Positions 11,707 to 16,897 of a stretch of DNA of 64,000 nt are shown piece after piece. Numbering within the stretch: the first letter of the stretch is position 1; each line of letters opens with the position of its first letter. This DNA is from Geobacteraceae bacterium (GTDB lineage: Bacteria; Desulfobacterota; Desulfuromonadia; Geobacterales; Geobacteraceae), in contig JAQUHN010000001.1 of NCBI GenBank assembly GCA_028683555.1, forward strand, positions 1 to 64,000, written 5' to 3'. The notes beneath the pieces were generated by a model. The model was not told where the DNA came from and made no database searches. It saw only the letters and a list, made by a program, of their open reading frames with translations. Made by a program: the position numbers and the translations under genes.

Positions 11707-12084
11707 TTACTGGACGCTTTTTACTGCTTCATTGGAAAAAGAGCTTTCGTTTCCTGCTGCATCATAACAGGTGACGGCAAAGTAATACGTGCCTGGCGCA
11801 AGCCCGCTGATGGTACAGGATGTCCGTGTTCCGCTATCAAACACCTTGCCATAGTATCCAGGCGTGGTTCCATAATGCACTTTATATCCAGCGACGCTGG
11901 GCAGTGGCATTCCTTCGCTGGTTAGGGGCGCGTCCCAGGCAAGCGTTACGGAGCCGGCGGTGGTAGTGCCGGAGGTCGTATCGCTCCCGCCAAAAATGCC
12001 ACCTCCTCCGGAACTGCCGCCGCAACCTGCAACAGACAACAGCAAAAACAATGACAGGGCTGCGGCGAAATGAAATTTCTGCAT
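11707..12084 (-). CDS. Small lipoprotein with a fibronectin type III-like domain
   Basis: 125 residues. The lipoprotein signal peptide ends in the lipobox S-V-A-G-C at about residue 21, so the protein would be anchored by lipid on the membrane facing the periplasm or on the cell surface. A Gly/Ser/Thr-rich linker leads to one FnIII-like domain (about 45-125) with VTLAWDAP, VAGYKVHYGT and AVTCYDAAGNESSFSNE. Domains of this type often accompany extracellular cytochromes and polysaccharide-related proteins in Geobacter relatives. The start has GGAGGTAA. The gene is controlled by the riboswitch and terminator just upstream at 12131-12250. Confidence 0.85.
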   Translation of the reverse strand: MQKFHFAAALSLFLLLSVAGCGGSSGGGGIFGGSDTTSGTTTAGSVTLAWDAPLTSEGMPLPSVAGYKVHYGTTPGYYGKVFDSGTRTSCTISGLAPGTYYFAVTCYDAAGNESSFSNEAVKSVQ

Positions 12085-12130
12085 ATCGAGTTACCTCCAT
12101 TTTTTGTCTGAAGACCTGTGCCCAAGGCGC

Positions 12131-12177
12131 AAAAAAAGCCGGGCGGAATATCTGAGTGATATTTCGGCGACCCGGCT
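12131..12177 (-). terminator. Riboswitch-associated intrinsic terminator
   Basis: On the minus strand AGCCGGG pairs with CCCGGCT, and the stem continues inward through CGAAATATC with GATATTCCG (one mismatch). Seven T residues follow. The left arm belongs to the 3' side of the riboswitch aptamer, so aptamer folding and terminator folding should exclude each other. That predicts that ligand turns the gene on. Confidence 0.85.
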
Positions 12178-12250
12178 GTCTCGATGAGACCCTATAGGCT
12201 TTCCGTCCCATCCTCACGGATGGTTTAGTAGTATCGTTTATCCTAGATAC
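12162..12250 (-). promoter_or_regulatory. GEMM-Ib riboswitch, predicted cyclic GMP-AMP class
   Basis: Read on the minus strand, the sequence has the GEMM-I layout: CTACTAAACC, a CATCC-GTGA-GGATG hairpin with GNRA tetraloop, GGGACGGAAAGCC, a second hairpin around GGTCTCATCGAGAC, then AGCCGGGTCGCC. Aligned on AAACC, the position equivalent to G20 of the Vibrio Vc2 aptamer is A. From published work, A20 in Geobacter GEMM-I RNAs marks the 3',3'-cyclic GMP-AMP-preferring subclass. The core closely resembles, from memory, the Geobacter cGAMP aptamer whose crystal structure is known. It lies between a promoter (12282-12310) and a terminator, and controls the lipoprotein gene. Confidence 0.88.
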
Positions 12251-12281
12251 ATCTCTAGACAATTGGTTGTTTTAAGCGTAA

Positions 12282-12310
12282 TTTTTACACCTGGATCAAA
12301 AAACTGTCAA
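12282..12310 (-). promoter_or_regulatory. Promoter of the riboswitch transcript
   Basis: On the minus strand TTGACA (12305-12310) and TAAAAA (12282-12287) are separated by 17 bases. Transcription should start near 12275, about 25 bases before the aptamer. Confidence 0.65.
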
Positions 12311-12637
12311 CAGTAAATCCCAAATTAATAACAAAATTACAACATGTCGGCGGGTCAGCGGGTGCGGTTATTGCCATTTAGAAAAAGATGACCGAAGCAT
12401 CTGGTTCAAAATTCGGATGTTGAGATAGTTGCTGAAACCGGTCTTTTCCCCCCCCGTTTAAGATAGAGCCGTTCATGGTCATGGCGCACCATCCTTGCGG
12501 ATTCGACCTTTCTGACGGAACATTCATGCTGGATACAAAAAACCCCTCAGCCAGTACCAGCCTGAGGGGTTTTTCGTCCTGATTAAACTCCCGGCCGGAA
12601 CTGTCCCGGGAGGAAGTGCCCAAGGCAACATGCAGCG
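12311..12637. other. Intergenic region between riboswitch promoter and cytochrome operon end
   Basis: About 325 bases. It contains the terminator at 12536-12574 and a run of C residues near 12448-12455. Nothing else is recognised. Confidence 0.5.
12536..12574. terminator. Bidirectional intrinsic terminator
   Basis: AAAACCCCTCAG at 12539-12550 pairs with CTGAGGGGTTTT at 12562-12573. A-rich and T-rich flanks make it functional in both directions. It would end the minus-strand porin-cytochrome transcript. Confidence 0.85.
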
Positions 12638-14854
12638 CTACTGTTCCGCACCATAATCCCGAGCGGCCCGGGTCCCTGCCGGTCTTGTGCCCGCCAGCGG
12701 AAGTCCGGGAGTCGGAGCGACCGCGTTATAATCTTCGTAGGCGTCTCTGAGCAACTGGATGGTGTACTTGTAGTTGTGGACTGCGGCAGAAGCGTTTGGC
12801 ACCAATGTCTGAGAGGTCGCGGCGGAGGGAAGGCCCTTGATGATGAACTGCAGGTTGAAGGCTGCCTTGTAGGCGTTCTTTCCGCCGGTGACACTGCCCC
12901 AGGTGGTGAACCGGTTTGCTGTCTCACGGAGCACGAGATCATTGAAAAAGTATGGGTAGACCAGGTCATCATAGTAAATTCCGTTATTGGCCAACAAGGC
13001 GATAAGCCTGTTCTGCAGACTCTGGATTTCGACCGCGATCGGATTTGCGATCCCGTTTCCGTCATAATCATTGGTGTCAAAGGCTGCCCGGTACGTGTTC
13101 ACATTAGGCGATGCTGCGCCTGCTGTCGAAACAGCAGGGCTGACTCCACTGATGCCGTGGCAATCGGAGGTGTTACAACTTGCGACGTTCGGTTGCCAGG
13201 AGTGGCCGCCGTTCATTGCGTCGGCGGTAGGATTCTCCATGTGGCAGGTGGTGCAGTTGGCTTCCTGGTGGGCAGCGTTAGAACTGTATGTCTTGCCGGC
13301 ATATTCATAGCCGTTGACTCCCCAGAGCATGGCGCCGGTGCCAAGGTAGTGGGGATTGGAAAATGCCTTGTTGAGATCTGCAAGCGCCACTTCCGGGGCC
13401 AGCTTGTTTTTGTAGAGGGTATAGCCGCTTTCCCGGCCCTGGTGGCAATAGATGCAGATCGTGGCGTTTTCGGTGGTAGCCGGTATCGGTGAATTGTCGA
13501 GGAACACATTGCCGGAGAAGCTCACCGCCGTGGATGCGTATCTGGTCATGACGACCGGCCGCCGGGTATTTGCCGAGTTTCCTGCCGTGTTTCGATGTGG
13601 GTCGTGGCACGTTATGCAGGTAACCGAAGCATCGCCATAGACAACCGGAGCAGACGCCGTCCCCTGCACGTCATCCTGGTGGGCGCGTGAGGTCAAGCCG
13701 TTATGGCACTTGTAGCAGGCATAGTTGTTGTTCCAGCCGCCACTGCCGTTGGACACGGCTGCATTCTGCCCCGGCTTGGCGGTTGCGCCGGTAGTGGCGA
13801 TCGCCATGTCGAAGGGGTAGATGGACTGGTGGCTGCCGGTGCCGGTCGGGTATTCCGGGTCATAAGCGGTGGGGTTGGCGGAAAATTCGCCGAACGGCGG
13901 CGCGCTTCGGTCACCATGGCCGGAATGGGTCCATTGGGTGTAGATATCGTCCTGGTGGGTAGCACCGCCGCTATTGCGGTAGGCTCCCCGGGTATGGCAG
14001 GCGGCGCATAGGGCTTCGGGGGTAACTTCATTGTTTGTGCCGACAACTTTGGTCAAGTCAGGGGTGACTTCCGTGCCCGGTGGTAGACCTGATGCGGGCA
14101 GTGCAGCACCATTTGGCTGAAAAAGGAATGCGGCGCTATTGGTTACCCCGGGGTCTCCGGGTATGCCCTGGGCGCCCGACGCCGTGACATAAAAGGCGCG
14201 GAACAACGGGTAGGCGGCCAGTGAGGTTCGTTGGGCGATGGCTACTTTCAGTTCCGGCTGGTGGCCGTCATGGCACGATGCGCAGGAAACAACCGGTTTC
14301 GGCAGGGCCGTGAGGCTCGGTTTCACCAGGTTGCCGTCGGCGTCGAAGGTGAAGCGTTGGTTCGGGTTGTGGCAGACGGAGCACTCCTGGATATGTTGGC
14401 CGGTGCTGACGGGCGTGGCAATCTGGGAAAAGGTTGAATTCGGCACATTGTTCGCATTGCCGTGGTCTGTTGCATTGAATTCGGCCAGTGCCTTGTCGGC
14501 GGTACCGCCGTTGATGGTTGAGTGGCAGGCGGTGCACTGGGCCGCTTGCGGGTTCGGATAGGGAATCGGGCCGACCCCGAAATGGTTCCCGCCATTACCG
14601 TGGCAGTCTTCACACTGTACCTGGCCGTCTGTCGTGTGGGTTGTGCCCTGCCAGGCAGTAACAATGGTGTTTCCGGTAATGTCTATCGGTAAAATACTCG
14701 TATGGCAGCTGATGCAGGTATCCGAACCTACCGGGCTCGGTCCAGCGACCGGAAAGAGAACACCTTCCTTTTTCCCCGAGCCGCAACCGCCGAGCAGGGC
14801 GGCAAGCAGGAATGAAAGAAGTGCTACAAAGCTCAGAATTCTGTTCCTCTGCAT
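12638..14854 (-). CDS. Outer-surface multiheme c-type cytochrome lipoprotein
   Basis: 738 residues. The lipoprotein signal peptide has lipobox L-G-G-C at about residue 24, so the protein should be lipid anchored at the outer membrane. I count ten CxxCH heme sites (CISCH, CEDCH, CTACH, CSVCH, CASCH, CAACH, CYKCH, CITCH, CIYCH, CTTCH) plus one C-x4-CH site (CNTSDCH) near residue 570. The last ~150 residues have no heme motif. It is the third gene after a porin and a periplasmic-type cytochrome, the same order as the Geobacter OmbB-OmaB-OmcB conduit. I infer that it is the outer-face electron carrier. It is not necessarily an OmcB ortholog. The start at 14854 has AGGAGG upstream; the longer frame from 14908 has no signal peptide at its N-terminus. 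Confidence 0.9.
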   Translation of the reverse strand: MQRNRILSFVALLSFLLAALLGGCGSGKKEGVLFPVAGPSPVGSDTCISCHTSILPIDITGNTIVTAWQGTTHTTDGQVQCEDCHGNGGNHFGVGPIPYPNPQAAQCTACHSTINGGTADKALAEFNATDHGNANNVPNSTFSQIATPVSTGQHIQECSVCHNPNQRFTFDADGNLVKPSLTALPKPVVSCASCHDGHQPELKVAIAQRTSLAAYPLFRAFYVTASGAQGIPGDPGVTNSAAFLFQPNGAALPASGLPPGTEVTPDLTKVVGTNNEVTPEALCAACHTRGAYRNSGGATHQDDIYTQWTHSGHGDRSAPPFGEFSANPTAYDPEYPTGTGSHQSIYPFDMAIATTGATAKPGQNAAVSNGSGGWNNNYACYKCHNGLTSRAHQDDVQGTASAPVVYGDASVTCITCHDPHRNTAGNSANTRRPVVMTRYASTAVSFSGNVFLDNSPIPATTENATICIYCHQGRESGYTLYKNKLAPEVALADLNKAFSNPHYLGTGAMLWGVNGYEYAGKTYSSNAAHQEANCTTCHMENPTADAMNGGHSWQPNVASCNTSDCHGISGVSPAVSTAGAASPNVNTYRAAFDTNDYDGNGIANPIAVEIQSLQNRLIALLANNGIYYDDLVYPYFFNDLVLRETANRFTTWGSVTGGKNAYKAAFNLQFIIKGLPSAATSQTLVPNASAAVHNYKYTIQLLRDAYEDYNAVAPTPGLPLAGTRPAGTRAARDYGAEQ

Positions 14855-14880
14855 AGAAACCTCCTTCTCTCCCGGTATGT

Positions 14881-15657
14881 TCAGTAGGTGTTGTGACATT
14901 GTCTGCATGTCCTGCCGTCACTCTTGCTACGGTAGTTCCCTTTCACCGAGCCCCAGTCCCTGGGATGCGGACTGACCTTCAGGCCTTGTCGGGCGCTGTG
15001 ACACTTCATGCAGACATCACCATCACTGTGGCAGCTTTGGCAGGACTGGAGATTCCTGCGTGCCTCGGCGGCGTGGTCTGCCGACCACCTGTGGGACGGC
15101 AGAAGTCCGCCTGGATGGCATGTCTGGCACTGGCTCGGATTGAAGATGGCATGATTCGGCCCGACGTCGCTCAGTTTAATGTCCCTGAATTGACGCCGGT
15201 GGGACTGGAACTGGAGATCCTGTCCCCGGAATTTCGAATGGCACTGGGAACAGTATTTCTGGTCATGGCAACGGGTACAGGTCTGCGGGTTGTCAAGTGA
15301 TTTAAGGGGATGAATTTCGAGCCAGTCGGTGCGGTGGCTTTTCGGCGTGTAATCCCGCTTGTAGTTGCGGGTTGAAAGGTCCGTATCGATTCCTCCACCG
15401 CTATGACAGTCGAGGCAAAATGCCTGGTCGTGGCATTCGGCGCAATTGCTGGTGCCTTTGCCGGCTGCAACGCGATGCCCACGAAGCCAGTCGGCATCGT
15501 GATTCAGAGCCACTCCTTCGCCTTTGTGGCATTCATTGCATTCCTTGATGGAAAGAGATGAATACTCCTTGTGCGGCTCCTTTTTCTGCGCAACAGCCAG
15601 TTGCACGCAGAAAGCGGAAAGTGCCACGAAGAGGAAAAGGAAAAACCATTTCTTCAC
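14881..15657 (-). CDS. Exported nine-heme c-type cytochrome
   Basis: 258 residues from a GTG start at 15657 (AAAGGGGG upstream), beginning VKKWFFLFLFVALSAF with a probable cut after AVA-Q. I count nine CxxCH motifs: CNECH, CAECH, CLDCH, CTRCH, CSQCH, CQTCH, CQSCH, CMKCH and CRQCH. Many are paired a few residues apart, and histidines suitable as distal ligands are spread between them. It lies 25 bases after the porin gene and 26 before the surface cytochrome. By analogy with porin-cytochrome complexes it should sit at the periplasmic side of the porin and pass electrons outward. OmaB-type proteins have eight hemes, so this one has one more. Confidence 0.9.
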   Translation of the reverse strand: MKKWFFLFLFVALSAFCVQLAVAQKKEPHKEYSSLSIKECNECHKGEGVALNHDADWLRGHRVAAGKGTSNCAECHDQAFCLDCHSGGGIDTDLSTRNYKRDYTPKSHRTDWLEIHPLKSLDNPQTCTRCHDQKYCSQCHSKFRGQDLQFQSHRRQFRDIKLSDVGPNHAIFNPSQCQTCHPGGLLPSHRWSADHAAEARRNLQSCQSCHSDGDVCMKCHSARQGLKVSPHPRDWGSVKGNYRSKSDGRTCRQCHNTY

Positions 15658-15682
15658 GGGAGTACCCCCTTTCAACAGCCTG

Positions 15683-16897
15683 CTAGAAATTGTAATCAAG
15701 GATAAAGCGTCCTTGCATATCGTTGTTGTAGGTATTGTTTATGTTATCTTCGATCTGGAGAGATGCGCGGATGTTTTTGGAAAATTTGTAGCTCCCTCCT
15801 ACCCAGTATCGCTGGGCGCTTTCATCGCCGGTTATGGCATCCCACTGGTACACATCATAGGCAATCCCTCCGGCCAGCCGGAGTTTTTGGTCCACGTCGT
15901 ACTGCACATCGATGGTTCCGCCGTCCATGTCACCCGGATAACCCTGGCGCTTGTCATAGGAGAGCTCGATGGAGAGGGCGTCGAGCGGCCGGAGCCTGCA
16001 GCCGATTTCGTAAAGGTTTGCGGAGCCATCATCACCGTATTCCTGACGGCTGTAGCCGACATGAACGGAGATCATGTCGTTGATGGTGTAGTCGCCCCGT
16101 ATGACACCTTCCTGGTAGCGGTTCACGGCAAAGACCGAATAGATCGAGGTTGCATCGAATGTCGGATAACTTTGGTACCACTCGCCGGTCAGAACGAGGT
16201 CGGCAGTGGGGAAGTATTTTACCCCGGCCAGCACCTCGTTGAATACCTCGGCCGTCAGGTCATACCTGACGTCGGAATAGAGCTTGATGTTCTGGAAAAG
16301 GTATTGCTTGAAAGAGGCGCCGATGATGTCGCGGGCCACGTCACCCTGGTCCCATTTGCGAAACCAGCTCACCTCCAGGTCGGTATTTCGGAACCCTGCC
16401 AGATATGCTGCCATGCCTAGGGCATAATCGCCACTGTGGCCCATTTCACCGTTAAGACCAAATACAACGTTGCGGCCACCGAAAACGGTAAAGCCCACCG
16501 GCCCGGTATTCTTCAGGGTAAGTTGGGCGCCATCGACAATTGCCGTGCCGGCGGATACGTTGACGAATTGCCGACCCAGCCTGATGTCCAGCTTGTCGAA
16601 GAGCCCGCGGTATTCGCCGTAAAGATAGTACAGCCGACCATTGACTCCGTCACCATTGTTCAGGTCAGCCGTGCCCCGGCCATAGCCATAAATGGAAAAC
16701 TTGCCGGCAGTGTCGATATCGGTGATGGCGAAACGGAGATATTGGGCCAGTTCTACCTGCCGGCCGTTATAGTAGTCGTTGAACCAGAGAAGCTGCGAGG
16801 AACTTGTGCCGTGGAATTCAACGGACCAAGCGGTTGCGGTCAAGAACAGGAACAGGGACAGGGACAGCAACAGCCGCGGAACCCATATTTCTCCCAT
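15683..16897 (-). CDS. Outer-membrane porin of a porin-cytochrome complex
   Basis: 404 residues with a signal peptide (ending near AWS-VEF). The body is made of alternating amphipathic strands with many aromatic girdle residues and ends in aromatic Phe (DYNF), as outer-membrane beta-barrels do. About 20 strands are plausible from the pattern. It contains no CxxCH. It is the first gene of an operon whose other two members are multiheme cytochromes, so I infer that it is the barrel that lets them meet across the outer membrane. Its ATG follows GGGAGGG. An inverted-repeat element (16917-17000) occupies the leader. Confidence 0.87.
   Translation of the reverse strand: MGEIWVPRLLLSLSLFLFLTATAWSVEFHGTSSSQLLWFNDYYNGRQVELAQYLRFAITDIDTAGKFSIYGYGRGTADLNNGDGVNGRLYYLYGEYRGLFDKLDIRLGRQFVNVSAGTAIVDGAQLTLKNTGPVGFTVFGGRNVVFGLNGEMGHSGDYALGMAAYLAGFRNTDLEVSWFRKWDQGDVARDIIGASFKQYLFQNIKLYSDVRYDLTAEVFNEVLAGVKYFPTADLVLTGEWYQSYPTFDATSIYSVFAVNRYQEGVIRGDYTINDMISVHVGYSRQEYGDDGSANLYEIGCRLRPLDALSIELSYDKRQGYPGDMDGGTIDVQYDVDQKLRLAGGIAYDVYQWDAITGDESAQRYWVGGSYKFSKNIRASLQIEDNINNTYNNDMQGRFILDYNF

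Follow-up and report, generated by a model that had tools for sequence, protein, structure and literature searches.

The leader described here raises three questions: which second messenger does it sense, in which direction does it act, and is the gene behind it connected with the electron-transfer genes that lie alongside? The window (the whole stretch of 64,000 nucleotides analysed, from a Geobacteraceae draft genome of 293 contigs) contains, on its minus strand, what we read with a probability of roughly 0.87 as a GEMM-Ib riboswitch with predicted selectivity for 3',3'-cGAMP, controlling one small FnIII lipoprotein via transcription termination. The switch is a further example of an already known riboswitch type.

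The leader begins at a predicted sigma-70 promoter (12281..12310, minus strand) with TTGACA, an 18-nt spacer and AAAAAT preceded by TG. In a consensus scan the site 12310-12281 has 10 of 12 consensus matches, and shuffles average 0.6 such sites; the match alone is weak, within chance and not significant, and its position is just upstream of the aptamer. The aptamer itself (12163..12239, minus strand; Rfam RF01051, c-di-GMP-I) was recovered by cmscan with 43.7 bits against a gathering score of 35 and over the full length of the model (1-87), with an E value of 3.1e-5 against all Rfam families and of 4.4e-7 in the genome search. Its moderate score probably reflects a model dominated by c-di-GMP members. 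The base equivalent to G20 of the Vc2 aptamer (model position 11) is an A at 12229, as shown by the Rfam alignment, whose 5' end has no gaps, and by a reading of all 16 aptamers in the genome. The C and U after it pair with the G and G of GGACGGAAA; alignment of relatives identifies here the GEMM-Ib (cGAMP type) core, CUAAACC, a hairpin with a GUGA loop and GGGACGGAAA (12200..12228, minus strand), with the pairs C21-G46 and U22.G45. This core matches that of the characterised Geobacter GEMM-Ib members (CUAAACC...GGAAAGCC, with the same two pairs), a comparison that leans partly on what we take to be the pgcA aptamer sequence. By its A20 and its core, the window aptamer classifies within the GEMM-Ib subclass. 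A first-pass annotation had described a GEMM-I aptamer with an A at this position, together with a promoter, an overlapping terminator and a lipoprotein gene; the covariance search bore out the aptamer, the A is in place, and the other elements are all present in the sequence, on the minus strand and at the correct coordinates.

An alignment of the window leader with those of 36 relatives (37 rows) shows how well these helices are preserved. Aptamer pair cells are standard in 93.7% of cases across the 37 leaders, against 34-48% paired in controls with slid partners; five pairs are changed on both sides (0-2 in the slid controls) and there are 14 doubly changed cells (2.0 in shuffles). Most of the sequence change falls in P2. 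Columns 12-37 hold C-G in 37 of 37 rows, and columns 13-36 hold U.G in 35 rows and U-A in two. In rows L024 and L036 the P3 pair C-G has become U-A, with the terminator altered to match. These two leaders (L024:1965-2040 and L036:1340-1415) precede genes for FnIII lipoproteins in a different family of the same order and combine the GEMM-Ib scaffold with G20 and U22-A45, which suggests that the messenger has changed on a related gene.

The direction of the switch can be approached through the intrinsic terminator (12131..12176, minus strand), in which the 3' strands of P3 and P1 of the aptamer serve as the 5' arm. Its stem (12176-12138) is followed by seven U (12137-12131) and folds at -17.3 kcal/mol; the lowest-energy fold of the 119-nt leader (-37.4 kcal/mol, z -2.3) contains the terminator hairpin. 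A terminator scan returned none, because the window stem has internal bulges and the hairpin of the neighbouring operon (see below) has a loop of over 8 nt, and both were established instead by direct folding and direct reading of the sequence. The relatives have the same terminator-aptamer layout in the alignment (their terminator energies leave out five leaders, four cut at the first U run and one missed). Because the terminator stem incorporates the 3' strands of P1 and P3, the RNA can form either the aptamer or the terminator but not both, and from this overlap the predicted action of the ligand is ON. We infer, then, that this is likely a transcriptional ON switch; an OFF switch is not favoured, as terminator and aptamer use the same strand. 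The cGAMP ON switch of Geobacter pilM, also GEMM-Ib, has the same layout, with aptamer and terminator mutually exclusive (PMC9262584). Without ligand, the nascent RNA would fold the 12176-12138 hairpin, the 3' strands of P1 and P3 being drawn into it, and the polymerase would halt at the U run. Binding of cGAMP would close the pocket formed by A20 and the C21-G46/U22.G45 step and hold P1 and P3, so that the hairpin is blocked; the lipoprotein would then be synthesised and exported, its probable destination being the outer membrane.

The riboswitch very probably senses cyclic GMP-AMP, because A20, C21-G46 and U22.G45 are found in a genome that also carries two Hypr-type GGDEF genes. The genome has 26 GGDEF matches, the majority with the usual Asp; in two full-motif proteins (L064 and L073) the Ser of cGAMP synthases takes its place. 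The motif pattern used does not resolve L056 and L067 (2 of the 26). The first, a receiver plus GGDEF protein (GHLIGS...GGDEY), has its best PDB match in 6d9m (256 bits, the next 141), a fusion of endolysin with a response receiver sensor diguanylate cyclase, presumably the T4-lysozyme/GmetGGDEF construct that the paper on the structure of GacA names (PMC6456294). It shares its domain order and signature Ser with GacA (GSU1658), is closest to the Geobacter GacA and is a candidate synthase. The second (HAMP plus GGDDF, GYIRGS) has the features of GSU1937, likewise HAMP plus GGDDF with the signature Ser, and is also a candidate; GSU1937 is supported as a second cGAMP synthase in G. sulfurreducens (PMC8835794). 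In Geobacter, the pgcA riboswitch prefers cGAMP with a selectivity of about 1200-fold, and expression of all GEMM-Ib genes falls when gacA is deleted (PMC6456294). The earlier proposal that cGAMP turns on the FnIII lipoprotein is supported, at the level of prediction, by the GEMM-Ib aptamer, its A20 and core pairs, and the terminator that excludes it.

A leader that is GEMM-Ib by sequence might nevertheless respond in the cell to c-di-GMP or to both messengers. Binding of c-di-GMP by cGAMP riboswitches is possible via a protonated adenine, changes in lower P2 alter their selectivity (PMC9262584), and the usual Asp of most GGDEF matches would fit such a reading; the specificity base and both adjoining pairs, however, are those of characterised cGAMP-selective Geobacter aptamers, and the two Hypr-type genes sit in the same genome, which makes this reading quite improbable. 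Still less credible is a decayed or ligand-independent leader that works as a constitutive attenuator only: the non-standard A40-C71 pair at the end of P3 could be taken as a sign of decay, but the mismatch recurs in 27 of the 37 leaders, the helices show covariation, and both the core positions and the overlap with the terminator are intact. The neighbouring operon (12638..16897, minus strand, outside the switch) encodes a predicted porin (404 aa, a weak NCBIfam match below the cut-off) and cytochromes with 9 and 10 CXXCH motifs, and the lipoprotein could belong to this electron conduit, with the riboswitch coupling the conduit to cGAMP. Both units are on the same strand, 328 bp separate the operon end from the promoter, and outer-surface cytochromes of G. 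sulfurreducens are under cGAMP control (PMC6456294). Between the two units, however, there are a separate promoter and a palindromic hairpin terminator with A and T runs on either side (about 12538..12578, arms CCCCTCAG...CTGAGGGG, found by direct reading). The closest riboswitch-lipoprotein pairs (in relatives G007 and G003 and on our own contig C179) have no cytochrome gene nearby, and an Rfam search of the window found no riboswitch belonging to the porin-cytochrome operon itself. We regard this conduit reading as unlikely.

No CXXCH gene was found near the relatives in G007, G003 and G024 or near the copy on C179, nor any CXXCH in a readable first gene behind the other GEMM-I elements of the genome. 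The step taken in the first-pass annotation, from the porin-cytochrome neighbourhood to a surface-electron-transfer regulon, is not supported, the operon having its own terminator and the linkage being unconserved in relatives. We have rejected the neighbourhood as evidence for electron transfer because of this lack of conservation and of the terminator between the units; the electron-transfer genes beside the riboswitch are probably chance neighbours only. A role of the lipoprotein in electron transfer is possible on other grounds, since G. sulfurreducens uses cGAMP signalling in Fe(III) oxide respiration (PMC6456294), and the neighbourhood is no evidence for it.

The controlled gene (11707..12084, minus strand) encodes a lipoprotein of 125 aa with a signal peptide, the lipobox LSVAGC, a Gly/Ser linker and one FnIII domain (Pfam PF00041, fn3, 28.4 bits against a cut-off of 25). 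It is preceded by the Shine-Dalgarno sequence GGAGG (12094..12098, minus strand), 9 nt before the ATG. From the single sequence AlphaFold2 produced an all-beta model of poor quality (pLDDT 54.6). The protein is probably located at the outer membrane, where it may serve in surface attachment or in contact with mineral or cells. Lipoproteins 57-59% identical to it are found on contig C179 of the same genome and in G007 and G003, each behind a GEMM-Ib. The C179 paralogue has sugar-polymer genes alongside, and its riboswitch is cut by the contig end. In G007 and G003 the locus occupies the same site, with a carboxylase gene on one side and gap/pgk/tpi/secG on the other (gene names from a reading of the translations), and the window and C179 copies sit elsewhere. 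The same pair at different sites suggests that the lipoprotein and its riboswitch move as a unit among changing neighbours. Adjoining the G007 locus there is also a fluoride riboswitch (L113:1991-2057), upstream of a universal-stress-protein-like gene.

On a broader scale, an Rfam scan of the 29 best FnIII loci in other genomes found a GEMM-I element immediately upstream, on the same strand, in 22. By chance, about 16 elements per 3.9 Mb would place a GEMM-I within 600 bp of roughly 0.1% of genes. As the FnIII loci are related, the 22 of 29 amount to conservation and not to 22 independent events; read in this way, the scan argues for a strong FnIII-GEMM link in relatives. The association is already published for Geobacter: an ancestral GEMM-controlled FnIII gene was triplicated in G. 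bemidjiensis (PMC2996986), and further cases are KN400_1971 (PMC13194489) and GSU1945 (PMC10599522). As in the window, Gbem_1796/1798/1799, GSU1945 and KN400_1971 are FnIII proteins predicted to be at the surface and encoded directly behind GEMM riboswitches; the window protein differs in being a short lipoprotein with one FnIII domain. Many FnIII relatives in other genomes are longer, with an added repeat or other regions after this domain. The aptamers of Gs1761/pgcA, Gmet_0970 and pilM share with the window A20, the C21-G46/U22.G45 core, a GNRA-type P2 loop and a terminator that reuses the aptamer 3' strand, a predicted ON switch; only the regulated gene differs, a cytochrome or pilus gene in their case and a single-domain FnIII lipoprotein in ours. 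In a Desulfobacterales MAG, an 85.8-bit c-di-GMP-I aptamer (L124:2791-2881) lies about 120 nt before an FnIII match, and the link may extend beyond Geobacterales.

The genome has 16 GEMM-I elements above the cut-off, that of the window included. Read by hand, nine (again counting that one) are canonical GEMM-Ib, three combine A20 with a c-di-GMP-like core (C205b, C53a and C53b), three have G20 (C205a, C44 and C200) and one, on contig C66, carries G20 on a GEMM-Ib scaffold; the element cut by the end of C179, upstream of the lipoprotein paralogue, is an additional GEMM-Ib. The scaffold with G20 (L014:4-80 on C66) is seen also in L135, L136 and L137. It is a natural counterpart of a published change, the A20G substitution that switches the Gmet_0970 riboswitch to c-di-GMP (PMC6456294). 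The C66 element precedes an L,D-transpeptidase lipoprotein gene with a SPOR domain, and the other readable targets are a spore-coat-U fimbrial cluster (C205), a BON-domain protein with a small membrane protein (C53) and small secreted proteins. Some targets are cut off in this draft assembly; those of C143 and C290 lie beyond the contig ends and so may include cytochromes. At the end of C290 there are three GEMM-Ib aptamers at an exact spacing of 226 bp (L017:66-594). This array is homologous to arrays before FnIII genes in G003, G005 and G007, and is 75-82% identical, over long stretches and spacers included, to those at L090, L091 and L038.

Several of the relatives carry mixed arrays, in which cGAMP-type (A20) aptamers with terminators are followed by a G20 aptamer of the c-di-GMP type and then by an FnIII gene. 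They were found at L087 (1022-1591), L090 (1501-2075), L091 (1018-1592), L098 (1341-1589; the same place as L027), L040 (1104-1342), L046 (831-1168), L023, L025 and L026. At L038:588-1302 four GEMM-I aptamers precede the FnIII gene, three of the cGAMP type and then one of the c-di-GMP type, this last with a C at position 20, the base of neither c-di-GMP nor cGAMP aptamers. L090, L091 and L038 belong to the genus of the window. A segment of the kind AGUACCUC or GUACCUCCUUG, located 6-9 nt after the second-type aptamer, complements the Shine-Dalgarno sequence of the FnIII gene; a match this long occurs in <4% of shuffles at L087, L090, L091, L098, L124 and L040, whereas the remaining loci have a weaker match or none. 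We tentatively propose, at a little under even odds, that the FnIII surface proteins of Geobacterales are a family whose messenger input has been repeatedly rebuilt: as a single cGAMP switch, of which the window gene is one case; as the G20 form of that scaffold, predicted to sense c-di-GMP, on some lipoprotein relatives; or as a mixed array. In the mixed arrays, one to three cGAMP-type aptamers would precede a c-di-GMP-type aptamer whose downstream AGUACCUC could mask the ribosome-binding site. A two-messenger gate is possible and, if true, expression would depend on both messengers, one acting at transcription and the other at translation. A survey of tandem riboswitches from 2022 has no cGAMP/c-di-GMP pair in its list of two-input systems (PMC9481103), and we found no report of such a pair in the literature searched, a search that did not cover the founding 2015 papers.

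For the biology of these bacteria, a small FnIII lipoprotein, and not a cytochrome, emerges as a recurrent target of cGAMP riboswitches, and the predicted cGAMP regulon would extend to an uncultured Geobacteraceae lineage. The mixed arrays of the relatives are the part most worth following: together with the A20 and G20 switches on the same gene family, they offer a natural series for testing how the choice of messenger evolves.
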